A DNA stretch of 64,000 nucleotides from the NCBI RefSeq assembly GCF_001632805.1, contig NZ_CP007220.1:3038001-3102000 (forward strand). Reading direction: 5' to 3'. This document shows positions 32,642 to 49,590 of the stretch, one piece after another. Below the pieces are notes generated by a model. It did not search any database. It worked only from the letters and a program-made list of their open reading frames with translations, and was not told where the DNA came from. The position numbers and the translations under genes are program-made. Source of the DNA: Mycobacteroides chelonae CCUG 47445 (GTDB lineage Bacteria > Actinomycetota > Actinomycetes > Mycobacteriales > Mycobacteriaceae). The stretch's first letter is position 1. The number at the start of each line of letters is the position of its first letter.

Positions 32642-32647
32642 TAGGTT
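32642..32647 (+). promoter_or_regulatory. -10 of epoxide-hydrolase-like gene A1
   Basis: TAGGTT, 7 bases before the ATG at 32655; no ribosome site. Confidence 0.5.
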
Positions 32648-32654
32648 GAAACGC

Positions 32655-33098: not shown

Positions 33099-33137
33099 GT
33101 CTGGTTCAGCCCCCTATCCAAAGCCTTCGACAGCCGC

Positions 33138-33143
33138 TAGCGT
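33138..33143 (+). promoter_or_regulatory. -10 of epoxide-hydrolase-like gene B1
   Basis: TAGCGT, 7 bases before the ATG at 33151. Confidence 0.5.
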
Positions 33144-33150
33144 CGGGCGC

Positions 33151-33591
33151 ATGACGGACACTCTCACCACCATCAACCCCACGGAGATCGTCGAGGGTCT
33201 CTGGGACGCCATGCGGCTCGGCGATCTGGCGTCCATCGACACCGTCCTGGATGAGAACGTCAGCTGGGAAAACGTCGGCCTGCCTGCGATTCGCGGGCGA
33301 TCGTCGGTGATGCGTGCCTTGTCCGGGCTCAACCTCCCCGGCGTTGGTTTCGATGTGAAGATTCACCGGATCACCGCCACCGGCAATACGGTGATGACCG
33401 AGCGCACCGACGTCCTCATCGTCGGTCGCCTGCACGTCGGATTCTGGGTCTGCGGAGTGTTCGAAGTGACGCCGCGCGGCACCATCGCCCTGTGGCGCGA
33501 CTATGCGGATGTCCTGAACATCACGGTTGGCTTCGCGCGCGGCCTGCTCGGTATCGCCATTCCCGCACTGCGACCGACTCTGGCGCACTGA
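33151..33591 (+). CDS. Limonene-epoxide-hydrolase-like protein, type B1
   Basis: A 146-residue paralogue. Asn41, Arg85, Asp87 and Asp117 match the catalytic set, but the position of the active-site tyrosine is Trp39 (SWENVGLP). Type B also shares IHRITATGNTVMTERTDV, distinct from type A. The Tyr-to-Trp change should remove one of the three residues holding the nucleophilic water, so activity or substrate may differ. Confidence 0.87.
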   Translation: MTDTLTTINPTEIVEGLWDAMRLGDLASIDTVLDENVSWENVGLPAIRGRSSVMRALSGLNLPGVGFDVKIHRITATGNTVMTERTDVLIVGRLHVGFWVCGVFEVTPRGTIALWRDYADVLNITVGFARGLLGIAIPALRPTLAH

Positions 33592-33603
33592 GATTATCTA
33601 ACA

Positions 33604-33609
33604 TAAATT
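33604..33609 (+). promoter_or_regulatory. -10 of epoxide-hydrolase-like gene A2
   Basis: TAAATT, 6 bases before the ATG at 33616, in an AT-rich spacer of 24 bp. Confidence 0.5.
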
Positions 33610-33615
33610 AGTCTC

Positions 33616-34056
33616 ATGGTTACCGCGGGATCGCCCACCAGACTGGACCCCGGAGCGATTGTCACCCGATTTCTCGAGGCCGTACAGAACGACGACATCG
33701 ACTTCGCACGAGACGTATTGGACGAGAACATCGTCTATCAGAATGTCGGGCTCCCCACCATCCGCGGCAAACAGGCTGTACTTCGATTGTTCGGGGCGCT
33801 GGAGAACACGTCGTTCGGTTTCGAGGTCGATGTTCAGCGCACCACCACCAACGGCTACACCGTGATGAACGAGCGCTACGACGCCCTCAGCTTCGGCCCC
33901 TTACGCACACAGTTCTGGGTGTGCGGTGTCTTCGAGGTGAGCGAGCGCGACACCATCACCCTGTGGCGCGATTACTTCGACTTCGCGGCGGTATCTCGCG
34001 CTTTCCTGCGGGGCCTCATCGGCATCGTGGTGCCGTCGCTGCGGGCGCGGTTCTGA
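33616..34056 (+). CDS. Limonene-epoxide-hydrolase-like protein, type A2
   Basis: A 146-residue paralogue close to A1. Tyr41, Asn43, Arg87, Asp89 and Asp119 keep the complete active site (YQNVGLPTIRG, NERYD, WRDYFD). It shares RTTTNG-x-x-VMNER with A1 but not with the B members, so A1/A2 and B1/B2 are sister pairs and the array probably arose by duplication of an A-B unit. Confidence 0.9.
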   Translation: MVTAGSPTRLDPGAIVTRFLEAVQNDDIDFARDVLDENIVYQNVGLPTIRGKQAVLRLFGALENTSFGFEVDVQRTTTNGYTVMNERYDALSFGPLRTQFWVCGVFEVSERDTITLWRDYFDFAAVSRAFLRGLIGIVVPSLRARF

Positions 34057-34141
34057 AAACCGTCGTACGAATCCGCTGACCGGACCTGGGGTCACACCCC
34101 GATATCTGATCACGCCCCTTCTCCCCCACGACGGTGCTCGC

Positions 34142-34147
34142 TAGCGT
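34142..34147 (+). promoter_or_regulatory. -10 of epoxide-hydrolase-like gene B2
   Basis: TAGCGT, 6 bases before the GTG at 34154. Confidence 0.5.
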
Positions 34148-34153
34148 TGGCTG

Positions 34154-34588
34154 GTGACCGACATTCTGGCAAGAACCGACCCCACCGCCGCCGTCGAAAC
34201 CCTTTGGAGCGCTGCCGGTCTAGGCGATTTGGCAGTGCTCGAGTCCGTCCTCGCCGACGATGTCCGATGGGAGAATGTGGGCCTGCCCGCAGTGCGTGGG
34301 CGCAAGGCTGTGTTGCGCGTGTTATCCGCCACGAACTGGCCCGGGGCAGGATTTGGCGTCAAGATTCACCGAATCACCGCCACCGGAAACACCGTGATGA
34401 CCGAGCGCACCGACGTGATCATCGTGGGCCCGCTACACATCGGATTCTGGGTCGTCGGAGTCACCGAGCACTCGGATGATGGAAAGATCACGCTCTGGCG
34501 TGACTACGGCGACGTTCTCAACGTCACTCTCGGTTTCCTGAGGGGCCTGCTGGGGATAGTTTTCCCGTCTGTACGTCCGCGACTCTAG
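34154..34588 (+). CDS. Limonene-epoxide-hydrolase-like protein, type B2
   Basis: A 144-residue paralogue of B1, again with Trp39 in place of the active-site tyrosine (RWENVGLPAVRG) but Asn41, Arg85, Asp87 and Asp117 kept. It starts with GTG. The cysteine present in the FWVCGV strand of the other three is a valine here. Its stop overlaps the end of the convergent small membrane protein gene by 4 bp. Confidence 0.87.
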   Translation: MTDILARTDPTAAVETLWSAAGLGDLAVLESVLADDVRWENVGLPAVRGRKAVLRVLSATNWPGAGFGVKIHRITATGNTVMTERTDVIIVGPLHIGFWVVGVTEHSDDGKITLWRDYGDVLNVTLGFLRGLLGIVFPSVRPRL

Positions 34589-36739: not shown

Positions 36740-37090
36740 TTAGGCGGCCGCCATTGCGCGAACCTGCGGAATGACAACCTTGGTCGCGACATCGATCCCA
36801 CTGAGTGAGCCGGCCGCTGTCGTCACTGCGGGCTGCGAAGCCGCGACGGCAGCCTCGCGATGCGCCAGTCTTGCGCTGACCTCGGATAACACCTCCGACA
36901 GCGGGACATCGAGCGCGCCGCAGATCGCGGCCAGCAGCTCACTGGAGGCTTCCTTACGGCCACGTTCCACCTCGGACAGATATCCCAGGCTGACACGTGC
37001 CGAGTCCGACACCTCACGCAACGTTCTCCCCTGCCCGGATCGAGCGTTCCGCAGGGTGTCGCCGATGGCCTCTCGAAGCAACAACGCCAT
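36740..37090 (-). CDS. clgR: Stress regulator ClgR
   Basis: A 116-residue XRE-type activator of clp proteases, htrA-like and psp genes. The helix-turn-helix is in [32 protein letters not shown]. The C-terminus ends A-M-A-A-A, resembling the AA-type degron through which ClgR proteins are turned over by Clp. The ATG at 37090 has an AAAGGAGAG ribosome site. A SigE-like promoter lies about 65 bp upstream. Confidence 0.95.
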
Positions 37091-37137
37091 GTGTCTCTCC
37101 TTTGCGTCCTGAACGTCGGCGTCCATACCGCGTAGTA

Positions 37138-37158
37138 GTTGAGTCTGCCTTGCTCAAC
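37138..37158 (-). promoter_or_regulatory. Hairpin at the clgR transcript start
   Basis: GTTGAG and CTCAAC arms separated by 9 bases; the upstream arm overlaps the SigE -10, so it could be an operator for autoregulation or a 5' stem-loop. Confidence 0.35.
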
Positions 37159-37182
37159 GTTGCCGCGCACGCGGAGGTTCCC
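37156..37182 (-). promoter_or_regulatory. SigE-type promoter of clgR-pspA-pspM
   Basis: On the minus strand GGGAACC (37176-37182), a 16-bp spacer and CGTT (37156-37159), the ECF sigma pattern described for SigE in M. tuberculosis, where clgR is a known SigE target. Confidence 0.78.
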
Positions 37183-37232
37183 GGAAATTTGAGTGACAGA
37201 CGCCTCAACGCCGCCCTTTATGCGGCCCTGAT

Positions 37233-37793
37233 TCACCGGTAACAGCGCCCACCACCGGGTGGGCTACACGAAGCCGGTCCCAGTTCCATCCAGCTCAAAT
37301 CCGTCCATGCGGCCGACAGCCAGGTCCTGGTGGGCTCTATGACGAAACGCATCGGACCACGCTCGCAGTAGGTTCGGTTATCCGGGGTTACTGCGCAGGT
37401 TGTGCCCTGATGGCTGATCTTGCTGCGCGCCGGCAGCGGCTGTCCTGCCTCCACAGCAGGGAATCTGACGGCCATGGACCAGTCGTAGTGCACCGCCCGG
37501 TCACCATCGATCCAGCCGATGTGGTTGGTCCCCGCCGGGGCTCCCGGAATCACGCCGGAGCAGCCGAAGCTGCCACGGCCCCAAATCCCGCAGTTCTGTC
37601 CGGCCGGCCCGATGAACCACACCCCACCAGGCTGAGCGAAATCGTTGGCGTTGAGCTCGTCGTAGTACCGAATATCGGGGAATGGGTCTGAGGTGGCCTC
37701 CGGTGGCGGTGGCTCGGAGCGAGCCGTCGCGACCGGACCTGCCGCGAAAAGAATCAAACTCAGAGCGGCCACTGCAGCACAGCGATGTCTCAT
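37233..37793 (-). CDS. Exported Cys-rich protein, last gene of the mce block
   Basis: A 186-residue protein with a signal peptide (about 1-28). The core pattern C-G-I-W-x-x-G-S-F-G-C-S-G-x-x-PGAPAGTN and later CAVTPDNRTYC gives four conserved cysteines; the same pattern recurs in the protein at 53480-54022, so the two are paralogues. The last residues include another C-x-n-C. It is on the same strand as the mce genes and ends about 50 bp before the clgR promoter. Function unknown. Confidence 0.75.
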   Translation of the reverse strand: MRHRCAAVAALSLILFAAGPVATARSEPPPPEATSDPFPDIRYYDELNANDFAQPGGVWFIGPAGQNCGIWGRGSFGCSGVIPGAPAGTNHIGWIDGDRAVHYDWSMAVRFPAVEAGQPLPARSKISHQGTTCAVTPDNRTYCERGPMRFVIEPTRTWLSAAWTDLSWMELGPASCSPPGGGRCYR

Positions 37794-37867
37794 AGCCCAC
37801 ACTCCGTACGCGGATCGTCTATCACGACATCGTTCTCAATATCTCGGTCCCGAATCATCATGGCGTC

Positions 37868-38263
37868 CTACGTGATCCGCGGAGTGATGCCATAACATGC
37901 GGCATTCCCAACGTCCATCGTGTTCTGGCAGACGACCTTTCCCTGGTAGACGATCCGTACGGTCACCCACCGGCCAACCGCGGCGGCGGGTCGCCAATCC
38001 GCCCGCAGCTGGCTGCCGTCCGGTGGCGCGCCACGAACGGAGCGCACCATTGCGTCAGTGCGCCATGGCAGTGCCACGCTCACGACAGCTGCCCGGCCGG
38101 TTACGGCCTGATACTCGATGTTCGCAACCTGAACGCTGTCGGACAGGACTTCATAGACGACGGGATCATCTGCCCAGGCCTCAGGCGGAGCCATCGGCAT
38201 GAACACTGTTACGCCACACACCGCCGCCACGAGGAAACGCGTCATGGTCCTCGCAGGGTTCAT
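37868..38263 (-). CDS. Secreted MmpS-like protein
   Basis: A 131-residue protein. A signal peptide ends at A-W-A near residue 31 and the rest matches the MmpS beta-fold layout: VVYEVLSDSVQVANIEYQ, VSVALPW, then VTVRIVYQGKVVCQNT and a final cysteine. Typical MmpS proteins keep a membrane anchor and pair with MmpL transporters; this one appears cleaved and sits in an mce operon. The ATG overlaps the previous stop (ATGA). The MmpS assignment is by pattern, not by alignment. Confidence 0.65.
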   Translation of the reverse strand: MNPARTMTRFLVAAVCGVTVFMPMAPPEAWADDPVVYEVLSDSVQVANIEYQAVTGRAAVVSVALPWRTDAMVRSVRGAPPDGSQLRADWRPAAAVGRWVTVRIVYQGKVVCQNTMDVGNAACYGITPRIT

Positions 38264-38760
38264 GTCGCTACCAAAACAACCGCGACAAGGGTGAAGTCCG
38301 ACTGTTCTTCGTAGAGGCTGCTGACGCCGAAATCGGTGTAGGCGCAATCGGGGAAAGCGTCACGTCCTTCCAACAACATCCCCTTGGTGGCATCGGCCAC
38401 ATTGTGACCCGCGCCCTGAAACGATGCCGTCCTGGTCGCCTCGATACCAAGGTCCCTCACAATCGCCTTCTGGTGCGGTTCGTCGGCCGGAACATTCTCG
38501 GCGGTGTGGTTGAGATACGAGTAGGTGGACCGGTTGATGATGTCGGCGGCGTGCTCTACGGCCGGGTTGTGGCGCAGCGGTGCACACGAGGTGCCGCCGC
38601 GTGCATCGACGACAGCCTGCGTCACTTCGGCTCCGGGTTCTGCGATGGCCGGCACAGCGAAAATAGTTGCGGCACTAAAGATCATTAACGAAGCGACAAC
38701 TACGATGACGGGCCCCTGTCTTGAGTCACGGCGCCCGCTACGGGGCTCCACTGTCGACAT
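38260..38760 (-). CDS. Exported protein with CAP-like domain (tentative)
   Basis: A 166-residue protein with an N-terminal membrane/signal segment (VIVVVASLMIFSAATIFAVPAIA) and a domain beginning VVDARGGTSCAPLRHNPAVEHAADIIN, which looks like the opening of CAP/SCP-like domains; the later CAYTDFGVSSLYEEQ and hydrophobic final strand fit as well. The ATG at 38760 is 6 bases after GAGGAG. Translation of the MmpS-like gene is coupled to its stop. Confidence 0.6.
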   Translation of the reverse strand: MSTVEPRSGRRDSRQGPVIVVVASLMIFSAATIFAVPAIAEPGAEVTQAVVDARGGTSCAPLRHNPAVEHAADIINRSTYSYLNHTAENVPADEPHQKAIVRDLGIEATRTASFQGAGHNVADATKGMLLEGRDAFPDCAYTDFGVSSLYEEQSDFTLVAVVLVAT

Positions 38761-38796
38761 ACGCATCTCCTCGTCGTTCGCGTGCGATGGTGGTAC

Positions 38797-39423
38797 TCAG
38801 CTGCAGGCATGGGAACGATGGATCTTGCTTCCCCAGTGCATGACCCGGTGGTACGACGGTCCCGTGAACCAGGTCGGTTGACGTGCCTTGATGCCGTTAC
38901 CGACATTGGACAATTGCTGCCACAGACCGAAGAAGCTATCCCCTTGGTATATAGGGAAATACATATCACCCGCGTGGTCATAGCTCTGGGTGAGTGCCTG
39001 TGCCCGCGGAGCCAGGAAATCCACTGACTGGTCAATGTTGGCGATGACGATATCCGCCTGCTCCTGGACGCCGGGAGCATCGTAATGGCCGTTGTTGCGG
39101 ACCAAACTGTCGTTGAGTCCCTCGATTTGATGTTTCACGGCATCGTATTGAGCGTCGAACCACTGACACATCTCTCGTACCGCGTTGACATCCACAGACG
39201 TCACGTATCGCCTCGTCTGATCGAACGGAAACGGAAACTGCGGTTGCCAATTGCTGGCCACCGGAGTCATCACCGGCAGCCGCTGCGGCTGGTCGAAGTG
39301 GGCAACTGGGTCGTAGCCGCCACCCGGATCAGCACTGGCTGCCGCCGTCAGAACCTCCCCCGAACAAATCAGTGTCGCGACTACAACCACCATCAACCGG
39401 CTACTCCAGATGCGAATCATCAT
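38797..39423 (-). CDS. Exported protein, unknown, mce-linked
   Basis: A 208-residue protein with a signal peptide (RLMVVVVATLICSGEVLTAAASA). The mature part has alternating helical stretches, VDVNAVREMCQWFDAQYDAVKHQIEGLND and ADIVIANIDQSVDFLAPRAQALTQSY, and a C-terminal WFTGPSYHRVMHWGSKIHRSHAC. I do not recognise it. It begins 10 bp after the stop of the Mce-associated protein gene, so it is in the mce operon and probably acts in the periplasm. Confidence 0.65.
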   Translation of the reverse strand: MMIRIWSSRLMVVVVATLICSGEVLTAAASADPGGGYDPVAHFDQPQRLPVMTPVASNWQPQFPFPFDQTRRYVTSVDVNAVREMCQWFDAQYDAVKHQIEGLNDSLVRNNGHYDAPGVQEQADIVIANIDQSVDFLAPRAQALTQSYDHAGDMYFPIYQGDSFFGLWQQLSNVGNGIKARQPTWFTGPSYHRVMHWGSKIHRSHACS

Positions 39424-39433
39424 GCTACCGAGG

Positions 39434-40105
39434 CTATTTGCCAAGAGCAGAGTCGATACCACCAACGTCGGTGATCTGCCAGTCGTTGTTGCTGTCGATC
39501 GTGATGCTGTACGTAGCAGTGGACTGCAGCCCCTCGGGCGCCTGCATCGTCTTGGTGAGCACGCTGACGAACGCATCGACGGTGAATATCCCACCGGCGT
39601 CCGAGCGAACCTTTGCAGCCAAAGGCTTGGCCGTCGACTTCCAATGCAAAGGCGCCAGAATCTGCTCCATCGAGTCAGCAGCCTTTGTCAGCTTCTCCTT
39701 CAGATCTGGGGAAGTTCCGTTGACCAGCTTGACTTTCCACGCCTTGAAGTCCTGGTAATCCATATCTGCGGCATTCGTGGCATAGCCAGTAGCGATCTCT
39801 TCGGCCCGCACTCTATTGCCGGCACCCACGGCCTGCTCGTCCAACTTCTGCTGCGCACCGGCATACAGCCAGCCAAGCGCAACCGCAACGCCGGTCAGCA
39901 GGAGGATCACGACCGCGATGATCACGCTGCGCAGTGTGAAGGACACCTGTCGTGGCTGCTTAGCCGACAGACTCGCACGACCGCCTGCGGCAGTCACATC
40001 GGCAGGCGGATCGGCAGGCGGATCGGCAGGCGGATCGTCTGGCTGAGCCCGGTCATGACTCTCCGTCACAGGCGTGCTTTCGGGTTCGGTATCGACAACT
40101 GACAT
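39434..40105 (-). CDS. Mce-associated membrane protein
   Basis: A 223-residue protein: acidic/proline-rich cytosolic N-terminus with a three-fold DPPA repeat, one transmembrane helix (SVIIAVVILLLTGVAVALGWLYA) and an extracytoplasmic NTF2/VirB8-like domain (GYATNAADMDYQDFKAW onwards), the layout of Mas/Mam proteins found after mceF in other mce loci. These proteins are thought to stabilise or assemble Mce complexes. The ATG has GAGAGGAAG upstream. Confidence 0.82.
   Translation of the reverse strand: MSVVDTEPESTPVTESHDRAQPDDPPADPPADPPADVTAAGGRASLSAKQPRQVSFTLRSVIIAVVILLLTGVAVALGWLYAGAQQKLDEQAVGAGNRVRAEEIATGYATNAADMDYQDFKAWKVKLVNGTSPDLKEKLTKAADSMEQILAPLHWKSTAKPLAAKVRSDAGGIFTVDAFVSVLTKTMQAPEGLQSTATYSITIDSNNDWQITDVGGIDSALGK
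39998..40037 (-). repeat. 12-bp tandem repeat, three full copies
   Basis: Three identical copies of ATCGGCAGGCGG plus a partial fourth; it encodes the DPPADPPADPP repeat of the Mce-associated protein. In-frame, so copy-number change would only lengthen the linker. Confidence 0.9.
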
Positions 40106-40140
40106 GAAACTTCCTCTCGGGTTATGGGAGTGGCCTCGGC

Positions 40141-41097
40141 CTAGCGGTCGGGCATGGATACACGAAGCGTGATCGCGCCGTCTTCCGGTATGCCTGATAA
40201 TGCGTTACTCAGGATTTGTGCCGTGTCGAAGTTCATCAACGCTCCCCCGATTCCCTGGAACTGCGGAAGTAGTGCATTACCAATAACTTTGAGATCAGGC
40301 GCCCGCGTGTCCAGAAAGTTTTGGAGGCGCGCGAGGAACTTTTGAAACAGCTGAACGTTGTGCGGATTGTTCCAGGCGACAACATTCATCATGGCGGTAA
40401 ATGCGCCCGATATTCCATCCCCTACAGCCCGCAACGGCGGCCCGATTTCTGCCAAAGTGGGGCCAACCCAGTCGGCATTACGCAGCAGATTTTGAAGATT
40501 GCCAAGAAGTTCCTGCCCTTTTCCGTCCATGCTCATCATCATGTTTCGGGTAAGCAAACTCGCGCGCGATAGGTTGGGTAGCACGCGGCCTGGATCCGGC
40601 AAGGAAGCGTCCGCTTCATTCAGGATCCTTTTGAGCTGCACAGGATCCATCTGGTTGAGTATGCGGACCACCGTGGCGACAAGTTGTGAGATCGAGGGCG
40701 GCACGGTTACCGCCTGCGCCGCGATGCGCTGACCGTCCGTCAGCACAGGGCCGTCATCGGACCGCGGCCGAAAGCCGACGTAGGCTTCACCGAGCGCAGA
40801 AAAATTATCCAGACGCACATCACTGTCGACGGGAACGTGCTGCCCGGGGTCGAGATAGAAATCGATGGTGGCATTGCTCACCGAGGTCGAAACACCGGTC
40901 ACCTTGCCAATGGCCACACCGCGCAGCAGCACGCTGGAGCCAACCACCACACCTTCGCTATCCGGTACGTCCATCGTGAGATTGATGCGATTCTTCGGTA
41001 ACCCCAGCCGGATACCGAACGACCCGATGTATGTAAGCGCGACCGCGATAATCATCGCGAACATTGCGAAGGACAGTATGTTCTTGGCGACTCTCAT
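40141..41097 (-). CDS. mceF: Mce protein F
   Basis: A 318-residue protein with an N-terminal membrane anchor (NILSFAMFAMIIAVALTYIG), one MCE domain (about residues 37-115, VVVGSSVLLRGVAIGKVTGV) and a helical tail. With MceA-E it should form a hexameric tunnel passing lipids across the envelope. Compared with many MceF proteins the C-terminal extension is short. The ATG overlaps the mceE stop (ATGA). Confidence 0.9.
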   Translation of the reverse strand: MRVAKNILSFAMFAMIIAVALTYIGSFGIRLGLPKNRINLTMDVPDSEGVVVGSSVLLRGVAIGKVTGVSTSVSNATIDFYLDPGQHVPVDSDVRLDNFSALGEAYVGFRPRSDDGPVLTDGQRIAAQAVTVPPSISQLVATVVRILNQMDPVQLKRILNEADASLPDPGRVLPNLSRASLLTRNMMMSMDGKGQELLGNLQNLLRNADWVGPTLAEIGPPLRAVGDGISGAFTAMMNVVAWNNPHNVQLFQKFLARLQNFLDTRAPDLKVIGNALLPQFQGIGGALMNFDTAQILSNALSGIPEDGAITLRVSMPDR

Positions 41098-42092
41098 GGC
41101 GCTGCTCCCAGTATGCGCAGCACATCCTGTACGTTGCCAATCATTTCGCGCCCGTCGGGCCCGGATATCGAGGTGATGTTGATTGCGGGGTACTTATCGA
41201 CGGGAAAGAAGTCCTCGATGAACAACTTTCGCCATTTAGGCGCTTCGTCTTCGAAGCTCCATTTGCTCTGTTGAACCGCCCCAACCGCATTGCTCAGCGA
41301 CCTAAGTAACGGAACCAACCAGAACCCTCCGCTGTAAATACTCCCGACCGACGGAAGTACGGTGCCGATGTAGCTTGCGACCACTGTCGACCGGTCGAAT
41401 CCCAGCATGCCTTCCGGCGAGAACCAGTACCTGTATGTAGGCAGGTTGCGGCTCATCACATCGGTAGTTCTCGATACGCCGTCAAGCCATTTGTCGACCA
41501 TATCCACGTTGTTGGAAAGGTCCGCCAGGTCCACCGCAACCCGGCTCACCAGGTTGCGCAGGTCTTCTCGATTCGACGGGGTCACACGGTTGATGCCGAT
41601 GATCGTGTCCTGCACCCGCTGGATCGCTCCACTGCCAACGAAGTTCGCCATGTTCGCCAACGTGTCCTCAAGCTGCGGCGGAGACACTGTTTGCGCCAAA
41701 GGGATTCGTCCGCCAGCGGTGACCGGTGGCGCCCCCTCACCTGACCGGAGACGTTCGAGCGCAACATAGGTATCACCGAGCACCGTTGATTGCTGCAGTG
41801 TGGCACTAACATTCGCCGGTATGTTGATGCCGGGATCGATCTGCGATGTCACATCAACGTGATTGCTTCTGAGATCGACCCTGGTGACCACCCCCACCGT
41901 GGCGCCGTCTTGGACCACTTTCGCACGATTCGGCAGATTCAGGACACTGGCAAATTCCAGAACGATGTCATAGCCGCCGCGATGGTTACCACCTGGCTGG
42001 GGTATCGCATTCACCGATAACGACGAACAAGAAACGACCAGCATGGCTGTCGCGGCTCCGGTAACCACTGTCCGGATTTGACGGGGGCTCAT
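41094..42092 (-). CDS. mceE: Mce protein E, lipoprotein
   Basis: A 332-residue protein whose signal ends at lipobox L-V-V-S-C (Cys22), as usual for MceE (LprK type). The MCE domain starts YDIVLEFASVLNLPNRAKVVQDG with the VGVVTRVDL strand, followed by a helical channel region. It overlaps both neighbours by 4 bases. Confidence 0.9.
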   Translation of the reverse strand: MSPRQIRTVVTGAATAMLVVSCSSLSVNAIPQPGGNHRGGYDIVLEFASVLNLPNRAKVVQDGATVGVVTRVDLRSNHVDVTSQIDPGINIPANVSATLQQSTVLGDTYVALERLRSGEGAPPVTAGGRIPLAQTVSPPQLEDTLANMANFVGSGAIQRVQDTIIGINRVTPSNREDLRNLVSRVAVDLADLSNNVDMVDKWLDGVSRTTDVMSRNLPTYRYWFSPEGMLGFDRSTVVASYIGTVLPSVGSIYSGGFWLVPLLRSLSNAVGAVQQSKWSFEDEAPKWRKLFIEDFFPVDKYPAINITSISGPDGREMIGNVQDVLRILGAAP

Positions 42093-43204
42093 GAGTGGCT
42101 CGCCTGCTGCAGCACGTACTGCAGCAGCGCAACGTCAACGGCGTAGGGCTGGCCGTTGACGTCCGCACAGCTGCCGGGCATCGACGCATTCATCGCGCCG
42201 CAGAGCGCCAGCTTGTCGTGGGTGGCAACGCGGAACAGCGGGGGTCGGTAAGCGATGTTGAACGTGCCGAACTGTTTGGCGTTAAAGTGATTTGCCGCGG
42301 TGTTGATCCACCAGGGCACCCCATTGAACAAGCCGGCAAGGGCGTTGGCGTGCGGGCTGATTTTTCGGAGGGCGTTGCTCACTCTGTCCAATGTGATCTG
42401 CGTTTCGTCCCCGAGTCTGGATTCCAGTGTGGCGACCAACTCCATAAGTGGACCAACCTTTCCGATGGCGTCCGCACCGACCAGCCGAGTCGCGCCGTCC
42501 AGCGCAGTCACGATGTCTACGGTCGTGGTCGGCGCATCCAGCAGAATCTCCTTCATCGGCCCTGTGATGTCTTCCAACGCTGATGTCAGCTGCGCGGTGT
42601 TCCGAACGATCGAGCCGATGTTGCTGATCTGTCGATCGGGGCCATCGAGCAAGTCGGACGACACGGTCAGCAAGTGGCCGAACCCTGCTCCATTGTTGTG
42701 TGCCAATTGATCTAACCCACGAACTGTGTCTGCGATGTTCTCCGAGCCGCTGGAGTTGATGGCGCTGAGGAAGCTGTCCGCCGACCCAATGATCTCCGAC
42801 AACGACTTCGGTGACACAGACCGATTGAGCGGGATACAACTGGCGGCGTTGAGCCGGGACCCTCCGGCGTAGTTGCCGACCAGTTCCAGCGAGCGATCCG
42901 CGAGGATTGAGGTGGACCGGATGACCGCCGTGACGTCGCCGGGGAATTCGCGTCCTCCGGTTACGGAGAAGCCGACGCGGACATGGCTGGGACCTGGCTG
43001 GATCGAGACGATTTTGCCTATGCGGTAACCCATCTGAGTAACAGGGTTACCTACATAGAGCCCGATCGCGTCAGGCATGAACGCACAGTAGGAGGCTTCA
43101 TGCCGAGCTAGCGGTGCGCATGACGAGTTGGCTCCGATGGCCACGACCGCCATCGTGGCGGCCACCATGCAACGGAGAGTTCGACGAACCGCGATCGCAT
43201 TCAT
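42089..43204 (-). CDS. mceD: Mce protein D
   Basis: A 371-residue protein at the mceD position. The N-terminal hydrophobic segment VAATMAVVAIGANSSC ends in a cysteine, which is unusual for MceD: it is reminiscent of a lipobox, though N-S-S-C is not canonical. The MCE domain (IGLYVGNPVTQMGYRIGKIVSI) and helical region follow. The ATG overlaps the mceC stop by one base (TGATG). Confidence 0.87.
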   Translation of the reverse strand: MNAIAVRRTLRCMVAATMAVVAIGANSSCAPLARHEASYCAFMPDAIGLYVGNPVTQMGYRIGKIVSIQPGPSHVRVGFSVTGGREFPGDVTAVIRSTSILADRSLELVGNYAGGSRLNAASCIPLNRSVSPKSLSEIIGSADSFLSAINSSGSENIADTVRGLDQLAHNNGAGFGHLLTVSSDLLDGPDRQISNIGSIVRNTAQLTSALEDITGPMKEILLDAPTTTVDIVTALDGATRLVGADAIGKVGPLMELVATLESRLGDETQITLDRVSNALRKISPHANALAGLFNGVPWWINTAANHFNAKQFGTFNIAYRPPLFRVATHDKLALCGAMNASMPGSCADVNGQPYAVDVALLQYVLQQASHS

Positions 43205-44175
43205 CAGCAGCTGCTTCCGGACATCGGTATGCACAAATCGGTGGCGAGCAGCTCTGGACGTGCGTTCTGCGCGTCCAGGACGCGCTCGAGCTTGTCACGC
43301 ACCCGGCGCAGTCGAGGGACGAGTCTGCTGTTGTTATCGACCCACCGACGAACCCGGTTCTGCCATTCGCGAACTTTCTGGATGAACTCCTCACGGTGGT
43401 TGACCCAGAATTTGCCGGTGGGAGCCAGGATCGCATCCGAGATGTCGCCCATGCCTTTCAGAGCGCCAGCGAATCCCTTGCCGTACAGCACAAGTGTCTG
43501 CTCCATGATCGAAATTTTCAGGATGAGATCCTTAAGCTTGTCGCGGTAGCCGGAGAGTGACTCGATGTATTCGTCCGACAAATCGAGGATCTGTGAGATC
43601 TGCCCCCGCTGCTTATCGATCGTCTCCGTCAGAGCATTGCCTGCGTTGACAACCGCCGATAGCGTCTCCACGTTGGTTCCGTTCAGGCCGGCCTGAATCT
43701 TGTCCAGTGATTCACGGATCGGCGTCGGATTGACGTTTTCGGTGATCTTGGTGGCACCGGCCAGTGCTTTCATCAGGTTGTAGGGCATGGTCACCCGTTC
43801 CAGCGGAATAGCCTTCTGCCCCAGCGGTTTGTCGCCCAGCGACACCAGGTTCACGTAGTAGCCACCGATCACCGTGAGCATCCGAACCTGAACTTGTGAC
43901 TGATCGCCGACAAAGGCGTCCTTCGACACGCTCAGGCGTACCTGAACCTGGTTCGGCTCAATCGCGAGGCTGTCCACCTTTCCGACGGTGATGCCGGCGA
44001 TGCGCACACTGTCGCCTAGCCGCACCGATGCGGCGTCGTCTGTGTAGAAAACCACCGGCCGATGATTGAGTGGGTTGACATAGATGATGCCGGCGGCCAG
44101 TGCCACCATCGCGACCATGCCTAGCGCAAGCAGGCCGACCATCGTCGGATTTGCGAGCTTCTTCAGCGATTGCAC
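43204..44175 (-). CDS. mceC: Mce protein C
   Basis: A 323-residue protein with an N-terminal helix (MVGLLALGMVAMVALAAGIIY), the MCE domain (YTDDAASVRLGDSVRIAGITVGKVDSL) and long helices containing coiled-coil character. It ends in a basic, arginine-rich stretch and a final cysteine pair. It overlaps mceB by 13 bp, indicating coupled translation. Confidence 0.9.
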   Translation of the reverse strand: MQSLKKLANPTMVGLLALGMVAMVALAAGIIYVNPLNHRPVVFYTDDAASVRLGDSVRIAGITVGKVDSLAIEPNQVQVRLSVSKDAFVGDQSQVQVRMLTVIGGYYVNLVSLGDKPLGQKAIPLERVTMPYNLMKALAGATKITENVNPTPIRESLDKIQAGLNGTNVETLSAVVNAGNALTETIDKQRGQISQILDLSDEYIESLSGYRDKLKDLILKISIMEQTLVLYGKGFAGALKGMGDISDAILAPTGKFWVNHREEFIQKVREWQNRVRRWVDNNSRLVPRLRRVRDKLERVLDAQNARPELLATDLCIPMSGSSC

Positions 44176-45170
44176 AGGATCACCCGTTGACCGTTCAGTA
44201 GTACGTCCATCGATTCAGGTAATTGCGCCCGTCCATGTGAGCACGGCACCGGGGTCCCGGGAGGCGCGGGCGGCTCGACGTTGTCCCAGATCACCGGTAC
44301 GCGTTTGAACGCATCGCTGTAGTCGTCAAACACCGTGATCGCCCGGTCAATCCCCTTGTCCATGTCTGCTTTGCCTGGGGTGAATCCGGCATTGGCCAGC
44401 AGCTGAACGGTCACGGACGTGAACTCCGGCCCGTACAACTCCGACTTCCGGAACTCGTCGATCACCGCGAGCGCGTTGTCCACCGGCCGATTTACCCAGT
44501 CCAGGATCTGTAGCAGATCTCTGGAATGCCCACCGAACGTTTCCGCGATCGCGCTGAGGTTGCGCATCAAAGTTGCGATGACCTGCTGTCGATCGGCCAC
44601 GAACTGGGTCAGTTTTCGGACGCTGTCCAGCATCGGTCCAAGACCAGTACCGTTGCCGTCCATAAACGAAGCGACATTGTCCGTAAAGTTGTCAATATCG
44701 CTGGGGCTCAAGGTCGCCAATACCGGTTGCAACCCGTTGAACAAGGTGGTGACGTCGAACGAAGAATGAGTCATGCTCAACGGAATTCGCGTCACCACGC
44801 TCTCATCGGGCCCCTCCTCGACGGGATCAGCGAGATCGAGATAGCGCAGCCCGGTCAGTGATTGGAACTTGATCGCCAGCCGAGTCTTGGACACCACGGC
44901 ATAGCGCTTGTCCAGGCTCAGCTCTACCTCAGCGATACTCTGCCCCTCCTTGCGTGCCAGCCGTATGTCCTTGACCTTGCCCACACGCACCCCACGAAAG
45001 CGAACATCCGCATCCAGACGCAGGCCGGACGCATCAGTGAATTCTGCTGTATAGGAACGTGTTTCACTGGATACAGGTTGCCGCAGCACGTTGATGATCA
45101 AGATCAGCAGCACGGCCCCAATGGCACCGCTGACCATGAAACGCCACAGTGCAGCCTTGGGTTTGATCAT
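44163..45170 (-). CDS. mceB: Mce protein B
   Basis: A 335-residue protein: anchor helix (FMVSGAIGAVLLILIINVL), MCE domain (YTAEFTDASGLRLDADVRFRGVRVGKVKDI, the clearest family signature in the locus) and a helical tail with a C-terminal cysteine pair (PVPCSHG and VILCNR). The ATG overlaps the mceA stop (ATGA). Confidence 0.92.
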   Translation of the reverse strand: MIKPKAALWRFMVSGAIGAVLLILIINVLRQPVSSETRSYTAEFTDASGLRLDADVRFRGVRVGKVKDIRLARKEGQSIAEVELSLDKRYAVVSKTRLAIKFQSLTGLRYLDLADPVEEGPDESVVTRIPLSMTHSSFDVTTLFNGLQPVLATLSPSDIDNFTDNVASFMDGNGTGLGPMLDSVRKLTQFVADRQQVIATLMRNLSAIAETFGGHSRDLLQILDWVNRPVDNALAVIDEFRKSELYGPEFTSVTVQLLANAGFTPGKADMDKGIDRAITVFDDYSDAFKRVPVIWDNVEPPAPPGTPVPCSHGRAQLPESMDVLLNGQRVILCNR

Positions 45171-46264
45171 GGGCCACCCATCGCACTAATCGGAGCCTGC
45201 ACACCAGGTATCTGATCGAGCACGATATGGACCTGCAACGCGCGCTGTTCCGGTGATCCCCCATACAGCTTCTCGAAACGTGTCCGCAGTTCCACCAGGG
45301 TGTCGCTGAGGCCCGCGGGTGTCACCAAACCGGGCACCGTGTCAGTGAGAGTCCGGATCACGTTGACCACCGGAAGCAACTCGCCGGTGTGTGATGACAA
45401 CAGCTTTCCGACAGCCCCGAAGAACCCCTTTGCGAGTAGATCAATGGACGGCAGGGCTCGTTTGTTCCAAAATTCTTCGGTGACAGGCATTCCGGGTTCG
45501 GCCACGACCGGGACAACAGCTTGCCCGGGCATCGCGTTCGCCGCGGAAACGTTGAACTTCACAAAACCCGAGCGCTGATTGAAGCCGTAACCTGCAACGG
45601 TTGCCGCCTCCACGAACCCCGGGAATGCCACACTGATTCCCGCCGTGTTTCTCAGCAGCTGCTCGGTGCTGACTGTCTGGACTGCCGCGACCGCACGGGC
45701 CGCCGTGATCACAGACTCGATCAGAGGATTGAGTCCATCGGTGTAGCGCGTGGCCCGGTTAATCACGTCAACAAGCTGCGGGGTCACCAGACCGTTGGTG
45801 ATCTCGCCCGCTCGGTACAGCAGCGCCTGTAGCGTGAAGTTTCCTTGCGGCGTGGCGGTGATGTGCACCCCGTTGTGCAATGGCTTACCACCTTGGCCCG
45901 CGATCAAATTGATACCGGTTACGCCAAAGTAGTTGGCGGGACGGAAGTCCACGCCCATCGTGTCCGTCAATCCCGCGGTGGGGCCGGCCTCCAGGTCGAC
46001 ATCGAGCCGGACCCTGTCATTGGCGACGGTCGACACGCCGGCGACATTTCCGACAGTTACGCCGTGCATCATCATGGGGGCCCCCGCCGTCACCCCCTCA
46101 CCGACGTACGGCAGGTCAATCACGATAGATAGGCGGTTCGCCGGCCGATCTGCCCACGGGTTGAAGGCAACACACAGCGCCAGTGCGGCAATACACAAGG
46201 CGACCGCAAGACCGATGATGCTCAGCCTGCGCGCTTCAGCCTCTGCTGACATGCGAAACAACAC
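45167..46264 (-). CDS. mceA: Mce protein A
   Basis: A 365-residue protein with anchor helix (LSIIGLAVALCIAALALCVAF) and an MCE domain (LPYVGEGVTAGAPMMMHGVTVGNVAGV), then a helical region. GTG 46264 lies 9 bp after the yrbEB stop; an ATG four codons later is an alternative. First of the six-gene mce set. Confidence 0.87.
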   Translation of the reverse strand: MLFRMSAEAEARRLSIIGLAVALCIAALALCVAFNPWADRPANRLSIVIDLPYVGEGVTAGAPMMMHGVTVGNVAGVSTVANDRVRLDVDLEAGPTAGLTDTMGVDFRPANYFGVTGINLIAGQGGKPLHNGVHITATPQGNFTLQALLYRAGEITNGLVTPQLVDVINRATRYTDGLNPLIESVITAARAVAAVQTVSTEQLLRNTAGISVAFPGFVEAATVAGYGFNQRSGFVKFNVSAANAMPGQAVVPVVAEPGMPVTEEFWNKRALPSIDLLAKGFFGAVGKLLSSHTGELLPVVNVIRTLTDTVPGLVTPAGLSDTLVELRTRFEKLYGGSPEQRALQVHIVLDQIPGVQAPISAMGGP

Positions 46265-46273
46265 GGTGGCCCC

Positions 46274-47149
46274 CTACGCCTTGAACACGAATTCGGGTCG
46301 CAGGCCCCACAGCATGATGGTGGTCGCCAGGTCTAACACCAAGATGGTCACCAGGCTGGCGCGGATAGCCCGGCCCGATGACTCCCCGACACCTACGGGC
46401 CCTCCGGAGGCGAAATAGCCGTAGTAGCAATGAATTATCGTCACCGCGGTGCAGTAGGTGGCCGCTTTTATCAGCGAGGCACCGATATCATGCGGGGTGA
46501 GAAACTCGACGAAGTAGTGATTGTAGGTGCCGCCCGGCTGGCCGTAGAAAACGCGAATCACGATGTCACACGTCACGAAACTGACCACCAGCGCCAGCAG
46601 ATATCCCGGTACGACACACATCAATCCACCGATGAGGCGGGTACCGACCACAAACGGGATCGACCTCAGTCCCATGGCTTCGGTGGCGTCGATTTCCTCC
46701 GCGATCCGCATGGAGCCGATCTCCGCGGTCATCCGGCAACCCGCCTGAGAAGCGAACGCCACTCCAGCGACCAGCGGAGCCATCTCACGGACATTCCCCC
46801 ACCCGCCGATGATGCCGGCGAGTGCCCCAAGCCCCATCAGATTCATGATGGAGAATGCCTCGATCGCTGCCATGCCACCGACCGCGATGCCAAGTACCGC
46901 AAGCACACTGATCACGCCGCCATCGACAATGACCGAACCCCGGCCCCACGCCAGGTTGTTCATCACCCGTAACGTCTCACGCCGGTACAAACGCACCGTA
47001 ACCGGAAGCAACCACACCGTCTGTGCAATAAACGTCACCCACTGCCCGGTGGCGCGGAAAGGCTCGAGCAGCGCCATCGGGATTTTGTGTCCGATGCCGA
47101 CACGTCGCGCGGGTAGCGCGTCGAGACGATGCTGCGGCTGGCCGGCCAT
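46274..47149 (-). CDS. yrbEB: YrbE permease B
   Basis: A 291-residue MlaE/YrbE-type permease of the Mce lipid importer. The conserved core is MAPLVAGVAFASQAGCRMTAEIGSMRIAEEIDATEAMGL, with five or so transmembrane segments. The ATG follows the yrbEA TAG directly with no gap. The partner ATPase MceG is not in this window, as expected because it is encoded elsewhere in mycobacteria. Confidence 0.92.
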   Translation of the reverse strand: MAGQPQHRLDALPARRVGIGHKIPMALLEPFRATGQWVTFIAQTVWLLPVTVRLYRRETLRVMNNLAWGRGSVIVDGGVISVLAVLGIAVGGMAAIEAFSIMNLMGLGALAGIIGGWGNVREMAPLVAGVAFASQAGCRMTAEIGSMRIAEEIDATEAMGLRSIPFVVGTRLIGGLMCVVPGYLLALVVSFVTCDIVIRVFYGQPGGTYNHYFVEFLTPHDIGASLIKAATYCTAVTIIHCYYGYFASGGPVGVGESSGRAIRASLVTILVLDLATTIMLWGLRPEFVFKA

Positions 47150-47983
47150 CTACGCCACCACCATCGGGAAGAACATCGTCTGCAACTGAGTGATCGCAAG
47201 ATTGACCGCCACAATGCAGATCACATTCAGGACCACCGCGGCGTTCACGGCATCGGCAACACCCCGCGGACCGCCCTTGGCCTCCATGCCTCGCTGGCAG
47301 GAGACCACCCCCACAATCGCGGCAAAAATGAAGCCCTTGCCGAGGGTGAACCAAAGATCGATCACCTTGGTAAACGACCCGAAGGACAACCAAAAACTTC
47401 CTGGTGTCACGCCATTGAACGCGGTCGCAATCACGAATGCCGCCCCAACACCCATCGCGATGATGATCACGACCAGAATCGGCGTGACCAGCAGCAACGC
47501 CAGAACGCGCGGCACCACAAGTCGTTGCACAGGGTCAATTCCCAGCGACCGCAAGGCATCGAGTTCCTCGCGAATCGCTCTGGCCCCGAAGTCAGACGCG
47601 ATCGCGGCGGCGGCAGCACCGCCCATCAGCAGGCCGGCTGTCAGTGGCGCCCCCTGCCGCAGCACGGCCACACCCGTGACCGACCCCACCAATGAATTGG
47701 CTCCGACTTGGTTGACGAGGCCTGAGATCTGCACAGCCACCATGCCGCCGAAAGGGATCGCCATCAATATCGCCGGCACGGCCGTCACCTTCAACAAAAG
47801 CCAGGCCTGAACGATGAGTTCGCTGAACGGCAGCCGCCCTGACAGTGCATCGGTCGCGGTGTACCTGAGCACCTGGGCGGCCAGGATCACACTGCGACCG
47901 GTCGTTGTGGCGCTACGTATCGGCACAGAGCCGACCTTCGCGGCCCCGCTCCTAACCAATTGCTCCACCGAGGCGAGGCCCAT
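47150..47983 (-). CDS. yrbEA: YrbE permease A
   Basis: A 277-residue MlaE-type permease with the conserved GARAIREELDALRSLGIDPVQRLVVPR loop and five to six hydrophobic segments. It starts 15 bp after the regulator stop. A TATATT lies 6 bases before the ATG, so a leaderless transcript is possible, and a 9-bp inverted repeat encloses the start codon on read-through mRNA. Confidence 0.92.
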   Translation of the reverse strand: MGLASVEQLVRSGAAKVGSVPIRSATTTGRSVILAAQVLRYTATDALSGRLPFSELIVQAWLLLKVTAVPAILMAIPFGGMVAVQISGLVNQVGANSLVGSVTGVAVLRQGAPLTAGLLMGGAAAAAIASDFGARAIREELDALRSLGIDPVQRLVVPRVLALLLVTPILVVIIIAMGVGAAFVIATAFNGVTPGSFWLSFGSFTKVIDLWFTLGKGFIFAAIVGVVSCQRGMEAKGGPRGVADAVNAAVVLNVICIVAVNLAITQLQTMFFPMVVA

Positions 47984-47992
47984 TGGAGCAAT
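47959..47992 (-). promoter_or_regulatory. Inverted repeat enclosing the yrbEA start codon
   Basis: On the minus strand ATTGCTCCA, then ATG and 13 more bases, then TGGAGCAAT: a perfect 9-bp stem with a 16-base loop holding the start codon. It can fold only on mRNA that begins upstream of the ATG. Confidence 0.6.
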
Positions 47993-47995
47993 ATA
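47990..47995 (-). promoter_or_regulatory. Possible internal promoter -10 of yrbEA
   Basis: TATATT on the minus strand, 6 bases before the ATG, inside the AT-rich end of the regulator gene; no good -35. Confidence 0.4.
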
Positions 47996-47998
47996 ATG

Positions 47999-48763
47999 CT
48001 ATAAATTAATTAAGGGAAGCCTTACCTGACACTCTGCCGGAGGGGGGCCGGCGCCCCCTCCGCCATTCCGGGATGCGGGTACCAGACGCACCATCACTTC
48101 GCACTCACCGTTGAGCGCATCGGGCACGATTGACACCGAGTACTGGGACGCGAGCGCCGGTGAGGTCAAGGCAAGTGCCTCCTCGATGGCACCGCGCTGT
48201 ATTCCGCTGGCAATTTCCGGATGTGTGAGAGCAATCTCGCGCAGCGGGCACGAGCAGATCTTTAGCTCGTGCTCGCCGAAGATACTGGTGACCGTGGATA
48301 CGCGGAATCCGAGCTGGCTGAGGATCTCGAGCGCCACGCTGGCCGGGTCCGGTACGTCAATCTGAAGGATGTGGGCGGAATGGTTCCGCGCCCAGATTCT
48401 CCCGGCATTTGCTGCGAGCTGTTCGCGTGCCGCCTCTGTACTACCGAACTGATCAAGAAGGAGAGGTAGGAAGGTGAAAAGCCGCGAGCGCGGGGCCGCC
48501 TCGTAGTGTGCCGGTGGCCGGCCTCGCCCCGAGCTGCTGCCAGGTACGACATTGACGGCACCCGAGGAGATCAGCTTCGCGAGGTGAAAACGCACGGTCG
48601 TAACATGCAGGCCTACCTGCTCGGCAAGCATCTGGACGCTCATCGGCGCCGGCGCTTCAAGCAAGGCATCAAGGATGACGTTGCGTCGGACATGTTCACC
48701 GGCATAAGCAGCCCGGGCCGGGATGACTTCTTCTATATCGCGCTCAGTGTCCGATTCCATCAT
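47999..48763 (-). CDS. SufR/ArsR-like winged-helix regulator heading the mce locus
   Basis: A 254-residue protein. A winged helix-turn-helix covers about residues 25-90 (SVQMLAEQVGLHVTTVRFHLAKL, wing GRGRPPAHYEA). The C-terminal domain resembles SufR-type sensors, with CSCPLRE at 170-176 and further cysteines at 221 and 245, four in all and potential Fe-S or metal ligands. It lies 15 bp upstream of yrbEA on the same strand, so it is likely both co-transcribed with and a regulator of the mce genes. The GntR or TetR regulators of known mce loci are of different families. Confidence 0.75.
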   Translation of the reverse strand: MMESDTERDIEEVIPARAAYAGEHVRRNVILDALLEAPAPMSVQMLAEQVGLHVTTVRFHLAKLISSGAVNVVPGSSSGRGRPPAHYEAAPRSRLFTFLPLLLDQFGSTEAAREQLAANAGRIWARNHSAHILQIDVPDPASVALEILSQLGFRVSTVTSIFGEHELKICSCPLREIALTHPEIASGIQRGAIEEALALTSPALASQYSVSIVPDALNGECEVMVRLVPASRNGGGGAGPPPAECQVRLPLINL

Positions 48764-48936
48764 TTACCAGTCAAACTCATCGGTGTGCCCACTGCCTGAC
48801 CGGGTGCCTCCAGATGGGATGTCTGTACCGCGACATGGAGACACGACCTGCAGAGAGCCGAACTGTCCTCAGGATCTATCGTGGCACACAATTCTCCACA
48901 CACCCTGCAATCAAGATCTGCAATGTTGCCCGGATG
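48764..48936. other. Non-coding stretch upstream of the mce regulator
   Basis: The larger part of the 212-bp gap between the regulator start and the pgsA3 stop. No convincing small ORF or RNA was seen; the regulator promoter should lie here, but I cannot pick clear -35/-10 boxes. Confidence 0.5.
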
Positions 48937-48965
48937 GTTAATAGCAGAAAATTTCTACTATTAAC
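48937..48965. promoter_or_regulatory. AT-rich 29-bp inverted repeat at the pgsA3/mce junction
   Basis: Arms GTTAATAG (48937-48944) and CTATTAAC (48958-48965), with AGAAA/TTTCT inside; 13 of 14 base pairs match around a single central base. It is 10 bp after the pgsA3 stop and about 174 bp before the regulator ATG. It could be an operator, a bidirectional terminator-like hairpin or an integration scar. Confidence 0.75.
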
Positions 48966-48975
48966 AGCGCGCGGG

Positions 48976-49590
48976 CTACGACGATGCGGATTTGGGCCGA
49001 GGCCGCAGCGCCTGCACCAGGTAGTCGATGCCGGTTATGAGGGTGAGAGCCACCGCCAGCCCCATCAGGACCGCAGCGGCGGTGTGCCAATGACCGGTCA
49101 GCGGCAGCAGATACCCGGCGATCGCCAGGGACTGCACCATGGTCTTGAGCTTGCCGCCACGATTGGCCGGGATCACCCCATGGCGGAGCACCGAGAAACG
49201 CAGCACCGTGATCCCGATCTCGCGCACCAGGATGACCGCGGTAACCCACCACGCAAGATCTCCGAGCACGCTGAGCCCTACCAGTGCCGCACCGACGAGC
49301 GCCTTGTCGGCGATCGGGTCGGCAAGCTGGCCGAACGGGGTGACCAGGCCGTACCGGCGGGCCAGCACGCCGTCGTAGCGGTCGGTGGCGATGGCCAGCG
49401 CGAACACCCCGAAAGCAGCGATGCGCCAGGAGGATTCGTGCCCACCCGCGGTGAACAGGACAGCGATGAACACCGGTACGAGCAGAATGCGCAGCACTGT
49501 CAGGATGTTGGCAATGTTCACCACCGGCACCGGCGCAGCCGAAGCCTCGGAATCAGGCTGGGTTTCCGGTGGCATCGGCACGTCAAACAC
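48976..49590 (-). CDS. pgsA3: CDP-alcohol phosphatidyltransferase (PgsA3)
   Basis: A 204-residue membrane enzyme of phosphatidylglycerophosphate synthase type. The CDP-alcohol motif is complete: Asp70, Asp73, Gly74, Ala77, Arg78, Gly87, Asp91 and Asp95. Four to six hydrophobic segments surround it. In M. tuberculosis the gene (Rv2746c) sits directly before clgR; here the whole mce block separates them. It is divergent from argA with 33 bp between starts. Confidence 0.93.
   Translation of the reverse strand: MFDVPMPPETQPDSEASAAPVPVVNIANILTVLRILLVPVFIAVLFTAGGHESSWRIAAFGVFALAIATDRYDGVLARRYGLVTPFGQLADPIADKALVGAALVGLSVLGDLAWWVTAVILVREIGITVLRFSVLRHGVIPANRGGKLKTMVQSLAIAGYLLPLTGHWHTAAAVLMGLAVALTLITGIDYLVQALRPRPKSASS

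Follow-up and report, generated by a model that had tools for sequence, protein, structure and literature searches.

How a substrate crosses from the outer membrane of a mycobacterium to the tunnel of a Mce transporter is the question raised by a block of genes in Mycobacteroides chelonae CCUG 47445. The block lies in a 64,000-nucleotide stretch of the chromosome (contig NZ_CP007220.1, positions 3,038,001 to 3,102,000), here called the window, and comprises a regulator gene (REG), yrbEA, yrbEB, mceA to mceF, a Mce-associated gene (mas) and four genes for further exported proteins (x1 to x4), all on the minus strand between clgR and pgsA3. The reading preferred here, to which we attach a probability of about 0.6, is that these genes form a self-contained short-Mce lipid import cassette, mobile between mycobacterial species, that entered a clade-specific hot spot as one block.

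The edges of the block were located by blastn against the closest relative, genome G088. Homology stops at position 37183 and restarts at 48984, and the DNA identity is 97.5% on the clgR side and 96.0% on the pgsA3 side. The window's clade was defined as the 10 genomes with a pgsA3 identity of at least 86% in a 396-genome sample of the genus; against all nine other members the left edge falls at 37183–37212 and the right edge at 48984–48988. The G+C content is 60.0% for positions 37233–48763 versus 64.1% for the remainder of the window. The insertion, its genes and their flanks are listed here in order of transcription, with search scores in brackets.

37184..48983, no strand assigned: the whole insertion, 11.8 kb, relative to 93 bp at that place in G088 (blastn)
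48976..49590, minus strand: pgsA3, backbone, on the opposite flank of the insertion (Pfam CDP-OH_P_transf 6.4e-47)
47999..48763, minus strand: REG, helix-turn-helix (HTH) regulator with a winged-helix N-terminus (Pfam HTH_20 5.6e-08, HTH_IclR 1.9e-06, ArsR-type HTH_5 2.3e-05)
47150..47983, minus strand: yrbEA, MlaE-type permease, EExDA at residue 139 (Pfam MlaE 6e-56)
46274..47149, minus strand: yrbEB, MlaE-type permease, EExDA at residue 151 (Pfam MlaE 1e-50)
45167..46264, minus strand: mceA, 365 aa (MlaD 8.5e-05 at protein level; NCBIfam Mtu_fam_mce 9.6e-11, under cut-off)
44163..45170, minus strand: mceB, 335 aa (MlaD 5.7e-17, Mce4_CUP1 1.6e-12)
43204..44175, minus strand: mceC, 323 aa (MlaD 3.9e-13)
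42089..43234, minus strand: mceD, 381 aa, lipobox-like N-terminus (MlaD 4.7e-11)
41094..42092, minus strand: mceE, 332 aa, lipobox-like N-terminus (MlaD 3.1e-14)
40141..41097, minus strand: mceF, 318 aa, the family marker (MlaD 3.8e-11)
39434..40105, minus strand: Mas protein, with an apparent membrane segment and a C-terminal domain (in 80/80 named loci)
38797..39423, minus strand: x1, exported helical protein, 208 aa (in 59/61 judged loci)
38260..38766, minus strand: x2, exported protein, 168 aa (in 59/61 judged loci)
37868..38263, minus strand: x3, exported MmpS-like protein, 131 aa (profile match to MmpS5 in the PDB)
37233..37802, minus strand: x4, exported EatI-like, beta-rich protein, 189 aa (profile match to EatI in the PDB)
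36740..37126, minus strand: clgR, backbone, outside the cassette and named by synteny (Pfam HTH_3 6e-09)

The first-pass annotation had proposed a mce locus inserted between clgR and pgsA3, and these coordinates bear it out. That the arrangement is not the ancestral one was upheld by a survey of the genus. In a sample of 148 genomes, 136 carry clgR and pgsA3 on one contig (132 outside the clade and four within it), five carry them on separate contigs, and seven gave no match to one or both genes at the thresholds used. The gap between the two genes measures 51–614 bp in all 132 non-clade genomes with both on one contig. Within the clade, the gaps are 157, 572, 1848, 2713, 5715, 6606, 11852 (the window), 15167, 19801 and 34863 bp. 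The clgR–pgsA3 interval is a clade-specific insertion hot spot, because nearly the same two edges recur with widely varying gap sizes among the ten genomes.

Different genes fill the hot spot in different members. A short mceF was found in three of the ten genomes (G000, which is the window's own, G494 and G517), and at the clgR–pgsA3 site in G000 only. The G050 insert carries TetR and putative esterase genes. The 15-kb insert of G146 (L069, 1624-16707) holds genes for a MspA porin, a MmpL protein, an O-methyltransferase, a type III polyketide synthase and an AMP ligase, together with prephenate dehydrogenase and anthranilate-synthase-like genes, and by its gene content looks like a biosynthetic cluster. 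Open reading frames (ORFs) from the inserts of five other clade genomes were pooled and 43 of the 59 called were scanned, one longer than 1500 aa and 15 others being left out; the best 25 of 63 families included cytochrome P450, chorismate enzymes, hydrolases, a pSAM2-type RepSA and a resolvase. The pooled output does not assign the RepSA and the resolvase to a genome of origin. Genes for chorismate-binding and prephenate dehydrogenase proteins were found in more than one clade insert. In G517 (M. franklinii; C7:158534-193398; L176, L177), the hot spot measures 34.9 kb from pgsA3 to clgR.

The layout inside the insertion is compact. The gaps are 15 bp between REG and yrbEA, 0 bp between yrbEA and yrbEB and 9 bp between yrbEB and mceA; neighbours from mceA to mceF overlap by 4–31 bp; further gaps are 35 bp (mceF–mas), 10 bp (mas–x1), 30 bp (x1–x2) and 65 bp (x3–x4), with a 4-bp overlap between x2 and x3. 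The starts of x1 (39423) and x3 (38263) were chosen by hand, the mechanical ORFs starting further upstream. The largest gap inside the block, from REG to x4, is thus 65 bp, and x4 is separated from clgR by 106 bp. These measurements agree with the first-pass figures (at most 9 bp or overlap from yrbEA to mceF, and at most about 105 bp elsewhere). A single long operon had also been proposed, and of this the operon-like layout of one Mce system with exported partners stands.

The gene names given in the first pass also held. A MlaD domain was found in all six mce genes and a MlaE domain in both yrbE genes, as expected of an Actinobacterial Mce transporter; the MlaD score of MceA was 23.2 bits against a curated cut-off of 25.1 bits at the protein level, and 26.5 bits, above the cut-off, in a six-frame search. 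The six-frame Pfam search of the whole genome (one contig, 5,029,817 bp) returned 50 MlaD/MCE matches, which by hand count from the match list form eight clusters of six and two singles.

The distribution of the family was examined with MceF. It divided the 148-genome sample sharply: nearly full-length matches of at least 45% identity were found in 31 genomes, and identities were otherwise 25–34% among the matches listed. With five first-look candidates scored per genome, MceF was detected at E ≤ 1e-60 in 91 of the 396 genus genomes; in the order sample it was found at the same threshold in 8 of 298 genomes, belonging to one of 76 genera. Roughly one in four of the mycobacterial genomes surveyed thus has a related cassette, located elsewhere on the chromosome. 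Two further MceF copies (G051:C325:59915-60850 and G019:C78:26764-27702) have one internal stop each and perhaps belong to decaying cassettes.

The composition of the cassette was then compared across loci. A scan of genome contigs that requires exact peptide words yielded the best 80, termed the named loci, a list that may lack the window's own record and those very close to it. By title all are from Mycobacteriaceae except one Nocardia africana locus, which has the core and mas without the x genes. A Mas homologue is present in 80/80. The presence of x1 to x4 was judged by profiles in the 61 of 81 loci with enough flank, the 20 dropped being too short or lacking an anchor gene: x1 was found in 59, x2 in 59, x3 in 46, x4 in 47, and all four in 45. 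The order core-x1-x2-x3-x4, which is that of the window, occurs in 30 of the 61; in the variants x4 lies upstream, or x1, x2 and x4 all do, x2 and x4 then being encoded on the opposite strand. In a tree of six proteins from 79 loci, 14 of the 17 loci with neither x3 nor x4 form one clade (support 1.0), the remaining three being the Nocardia locus L140 and two loci soon cut off by a contig end, L126 and L143; three loci without x3 form a separate clade (support 1.0). The gene set recurs across species beyond chance, its x-gene complement follows the Mce tree, and the family is a conserved, patchily spread short-Mce variant with one Mas.

Evidence for movement between species came from a pair of loci. 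The cassettes of M. franklinii (L075) and sp. D16Q14 (L077) are 96.7% identical over 11,465 bp, and their surroundings are less alike (upstream flank 92.7%, downstream flank 87.0%, DNA beside pgsA3 87.5%). The cassettes being closer than their surroundings, transfer is indicated, and the pair points to a cassette that moves between mycobacterial species. For the window and M. franklinii the relation is reversed: the cassettes share ~72% DNA identity (7,745 bp), with 68.5% in the x part, and the pgsA3-side DNA shares 86.6%. These two cassettes were therefore probably acquired separately.

The core proteins are short. The window's Mce proteins span 318–381 aa, and the median lengths across loci are 335 (MceB), 323 (MceC), 374 (MceD), 332 (MceE) and 318 (MceF). 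The ATPase-coupling motif EExDA is present in both window YrbE proteins and in 66 of 73 YrbEA orthologues, and a lipobox pattern in 43 of 77 MceD and 68 of 79 MceE orthologues. No meaningful Pfam or NCBIfam family was found for Mas, and a profile of its orthologues matched genes beside other mce operons (E 6e-06 to 1e-09). Among the closest known systems is Mce1 (8fed/8fee/8fef), likewise built from six Mce proteins and two YrbE proteins. The alignment of the MceF profile covers residues 13–282 of Mce1F (8fed_F, 518 aa), and the best solved relative of MceD is Mce1D (8fed_D, 1.5e-09). The Mce1C, D and F chains, however, measure 524, 547 and 518 aa and have long tails, whereas the cassette proteins are without such tails; the cassette differs further in its lipobox-like MceD and in its exported partners. 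The Mce1 preprint (PMC9882608) describes a MCE ring, an eight-repeat needle and a portal strand, with the C-termini of C, D and F unstructured. By analogy, the short forms would fit a core without disordered C-terminal tails.

It could be that the cassette is a named mce group to which genes have been added, for example mce9, a name also used in Fedrizzi 2017, or mce7, which has one Mas gene downstream. Casali and Riley 2007 (PMC1810536) place mce7 in M. smegmatis, M. avium and N. farcinica (operons including MSMEG1131-1138 and MAP and nfa operons) with a single downstream Mas gene, as in the cassette, and a 2019 paper assigns mce4 and mce9 genes to the chelonae-abscessus complex. The 2019 paper, however, reports the complex to be without mce7 and mce8, and none of the three mce7 holders is among the best 80 loci of the exact-peptide-word scan. 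Operons 1–8, as described in PMC1810536, share the order yrbEAB-mceA-F-mas with the cassette, which differs from them by four further exported proteins and its patchy spread; MceF-like matches outside the family reach 25–34% identity among those listed. We regard this identification as unlikely. As a separate observation, a second, more distant Mce operon in G088 (L156, C1:964000-983900) and G146 (L157, C1:863300-883200) is ~26–59% identical to the cassette proteins and has mas, with no x1–x4 match in the 20 kb examined.

The role of the exported proteins was explored by profile and structure searches. The AlphaFold2 model of x1 is helical, with a predicted local distance difference test score (pLDDT) of 88.8, and a fold search with it gave no PDB match at E ≤ 0.001; assignment of x1 to DUF6022 was rejected as too weak (5/31 members, best 0.0012). 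It was detected in 28 of 61 genus genomes searched. The 19 strong matches (E ≤ 1e-79) are confined to exactly the 13 of these 61 that have a short mceF (19 mceF loci); in the draft genome G008 the strong x1 and the short mceF are on different contigs. A further 22 weaker matches lie elsewhere, and 13 of them have another mce gene in the ~20-kb surroundings, 12 within 10 kb and one at ~13 kb (14 if a Mas-only neighbourhood is counted). The chance expectation is about one of the 22, by a hand estimate of 5–6% each for eight operons in 5 Mb. Distant homologues being so often near other mce operons, x1 is likely to represent a general Mce-associated family.

For x2, no Pfam family was found above noise, and a reading as a CAP/SCP secreted protein was dropped (Pfam CAP match in 1/30 members, E 0.069). 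The x3 profile matched MmpS5 in the PDB (8em5, 6.6e-06), and PF05423 (MmpS) was found at E ≤ 1 in 23 of 25 members (best 4.2e-05); the window protein alone scored 15.1 bits against a curated cut-off of 21. The resemblance to MmpS is a remote one; unlike MmpS4/MmpS5, the x3 protein is encoded together with mce genes and, to judge by its N-terminus, appears secreted. The x4 profile matched EatI (9mz5_C 4.4e-09; 9myt_A 1.4e-07), again a remote similarity. The number of cysteines after residue 40 of x4 is even in 58 of 58 orthologues (median 6). Its model is beta-rich (mean pLDDT 81.0), and a fold search gave no match at E ≤ 0.001, EatI not being among the best 50 Foldseek matches.

One interpretation, put forward tentatively and at some distance below even odds, is that x1 to x4 and Mas form a dedicated outer module, capping the short Mce needle and linking it to the mycomembrane, with x1 belonging to a general family of Mce partners that ordinary mce operons use as well. 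The Mce1 preprint raises the possibility that further, as yet unknown outer-membrane factors take part. Genes upstream of the cassettes offer a hint at the substrate: among 33 ORFs scanned (49 found for 66 loci, 17 of which gave none, minus 16 that were x genes) there were four P450, four TetR, three short-chain dehydrogenase/reductase and three flavin-containing monooxygenase-like genes, which, with no control set, may point to oxidised hydrophobic compounds.

Transport in the opposite direction, that is, recycling or export of envelope lipids with a MmpL exporter as partner of the MmpS-like x3, appears less probable still than membership of a named mce group. The idea draws on the x3 resemblance, solved MmpS proteins carrying the name siderophore export accessory proteins. 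However, no mmpL gene was found in the window's insert by Pfam scan, mmpL was not a recurring cassette part in a neighbour clustering that was noisy owing to overlapping false ORFs, x3 is missing from one whole cassette clade, and the account of Mce1 function in PMC9882608 is one of import. Import remains the preferred direction.

The position beside the psp operon was considered next. Beyond x4 on the minus strand lie clgR, then pspA, then a Rv2743c-family gene. Two features near the edges of the insertion bear on regulation.

37156..37181, minus strand: GGAAC-N17-CGTT, which resembles a sigma-E-type promoter, before clgR and 2 bp inside the edge of the insertion (pattern search)
48938..48964, no strand assigned: a 27-bp palindrome, TTAATAGCAGAAAATTTCTACTATTAA, candidate REG operator or remnant of an insertion end (match to its own reverse complement)

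The sigma-E-type pattern GGAAC-N17-CGTT precedes clgR in each of the 10 clade genomes and in G149, and was also seen in M. senegalense; with a spacing of 16–18 it occurs just twice in the window. As this element is kept before clgR, psp need not depend on the mce transcript. A sigma-70 promoter scan gave one site where 3.9 were expected. A consensus scan found no terminator-like site between x4 and clgR, so read-through from the cassette into clgR and psp is possible.

A special tie of the cassette to the psp operon, as the first-pass annotation had suggested, did not survive the comparison of loci. On that account the cassette would be functionally linked to the psp/clgR envelope-stress operon and placed there for read-through or shared control, and the common strand, the short x4–clgR gap and the lack of a detected terminator-like site speak for it. 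Yet clgR, pspA and pgsA3 occur in none of the 80 named loci (stretches of up to ~21 kb) and in none of 40 unnamed loci, many of which are the same loci as named ones; other genes fill the same place in related genomes, and the clgR element is retained in the clade and G149. The tie is thus improbable, and the psp neighbourhood of the cassette looks incidental.

The regulator was likewise claimed as part of the locus. It lies inside the insertion, and its NCBIfam matches are all under cut-off; as a general cassette component it was rejected, a homologue being present in 1/80 named loci at 32% identity; the one homologue among the unnamed loci belongs to this same locus. The palindrome TTAATAGCAGAAAATTTCTACTATTAA lies ~20 bp inside the right edge, upstream of REG, and has three mismatches to its own reverse complement, with 0 expected in shuffles. 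Its exact pattern with free positions was found in none of 199 loci examined, and it was not reported by a repeat finder. Beyond the psp operon, 32646-34588 (plus strand) holds a tandem array of four limonene-1,2-epoxide hydrolase family genes (PF07858); the DNA of this region matches G088 and G050, both without the mce insert.

That the block is ancestral and was lost in relatives rather than gained is very improbable: other clade members do have the same edges, but their scanned inserts carry different genes, all 132 outside genomes are without an insert, and the nearest relative, at 96–97% DNA identity, has just 93 bp there.

Several observations weigh against the cassette reading as a whole or against parts of it. 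The L075/L077 identity could also come from slow change, and the branching that would single out the nearest relative of the window's cassette has tree supports of just 0.037 and 0.251. The x genes are not universal: x3 and x4 are lacking in the whole 14-locus clade, so that these two, at least, are dispensable to the core, L149 is without x1, and L140 is without all four. No mce gene was found around eight of the 22 distant x1 homologues (three of these stretches being cut by contig ends), and one with no mce genes in 20 kb is in the window's own genome (G000:C1:669587-670189, L190). The EatI and MmpS likenesses are remote, the EExDA motif is present in just 42 of 71 YrbEB orthologues, and GGAAC-N17-CGTT is absent from the M. 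aurum stretch examined.

Under the preferred reading, the system would work as follows. YrbEA and YrbEB would form the permease and, as in Mce1, would draw on MceG, an ATPase encoded at another site. MceA to MceF, lacking the disordered tails, would span the periplasm as ring, needle and portal, and MceD and MceE would carry lipid anchors. Mas and x1 to x4 would be exported and act on the outer side, probably at the outer end of the system, where they may capture or pass on a hydrophobic substrate outside the range of ordinary Mce systems. The substrate would enter at the portal and travel through the needle, its inward movement driven by YrbEAB and the shared ATPase. REG would control the cassette, with clgR and psp retaining their own stress promoter.

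For the family, the hot spot marks where one mycobacterial clade acquires new genes, and the history of the site cautions against inferring regulation from a psp neighbourhood. An exported set that travels with one Mce variety, with x1 relatives beside other mce operons, supplies candidates for outer-membrane factors, and the outer module, if true, would be a missing outer-membrane side of Mce transport.

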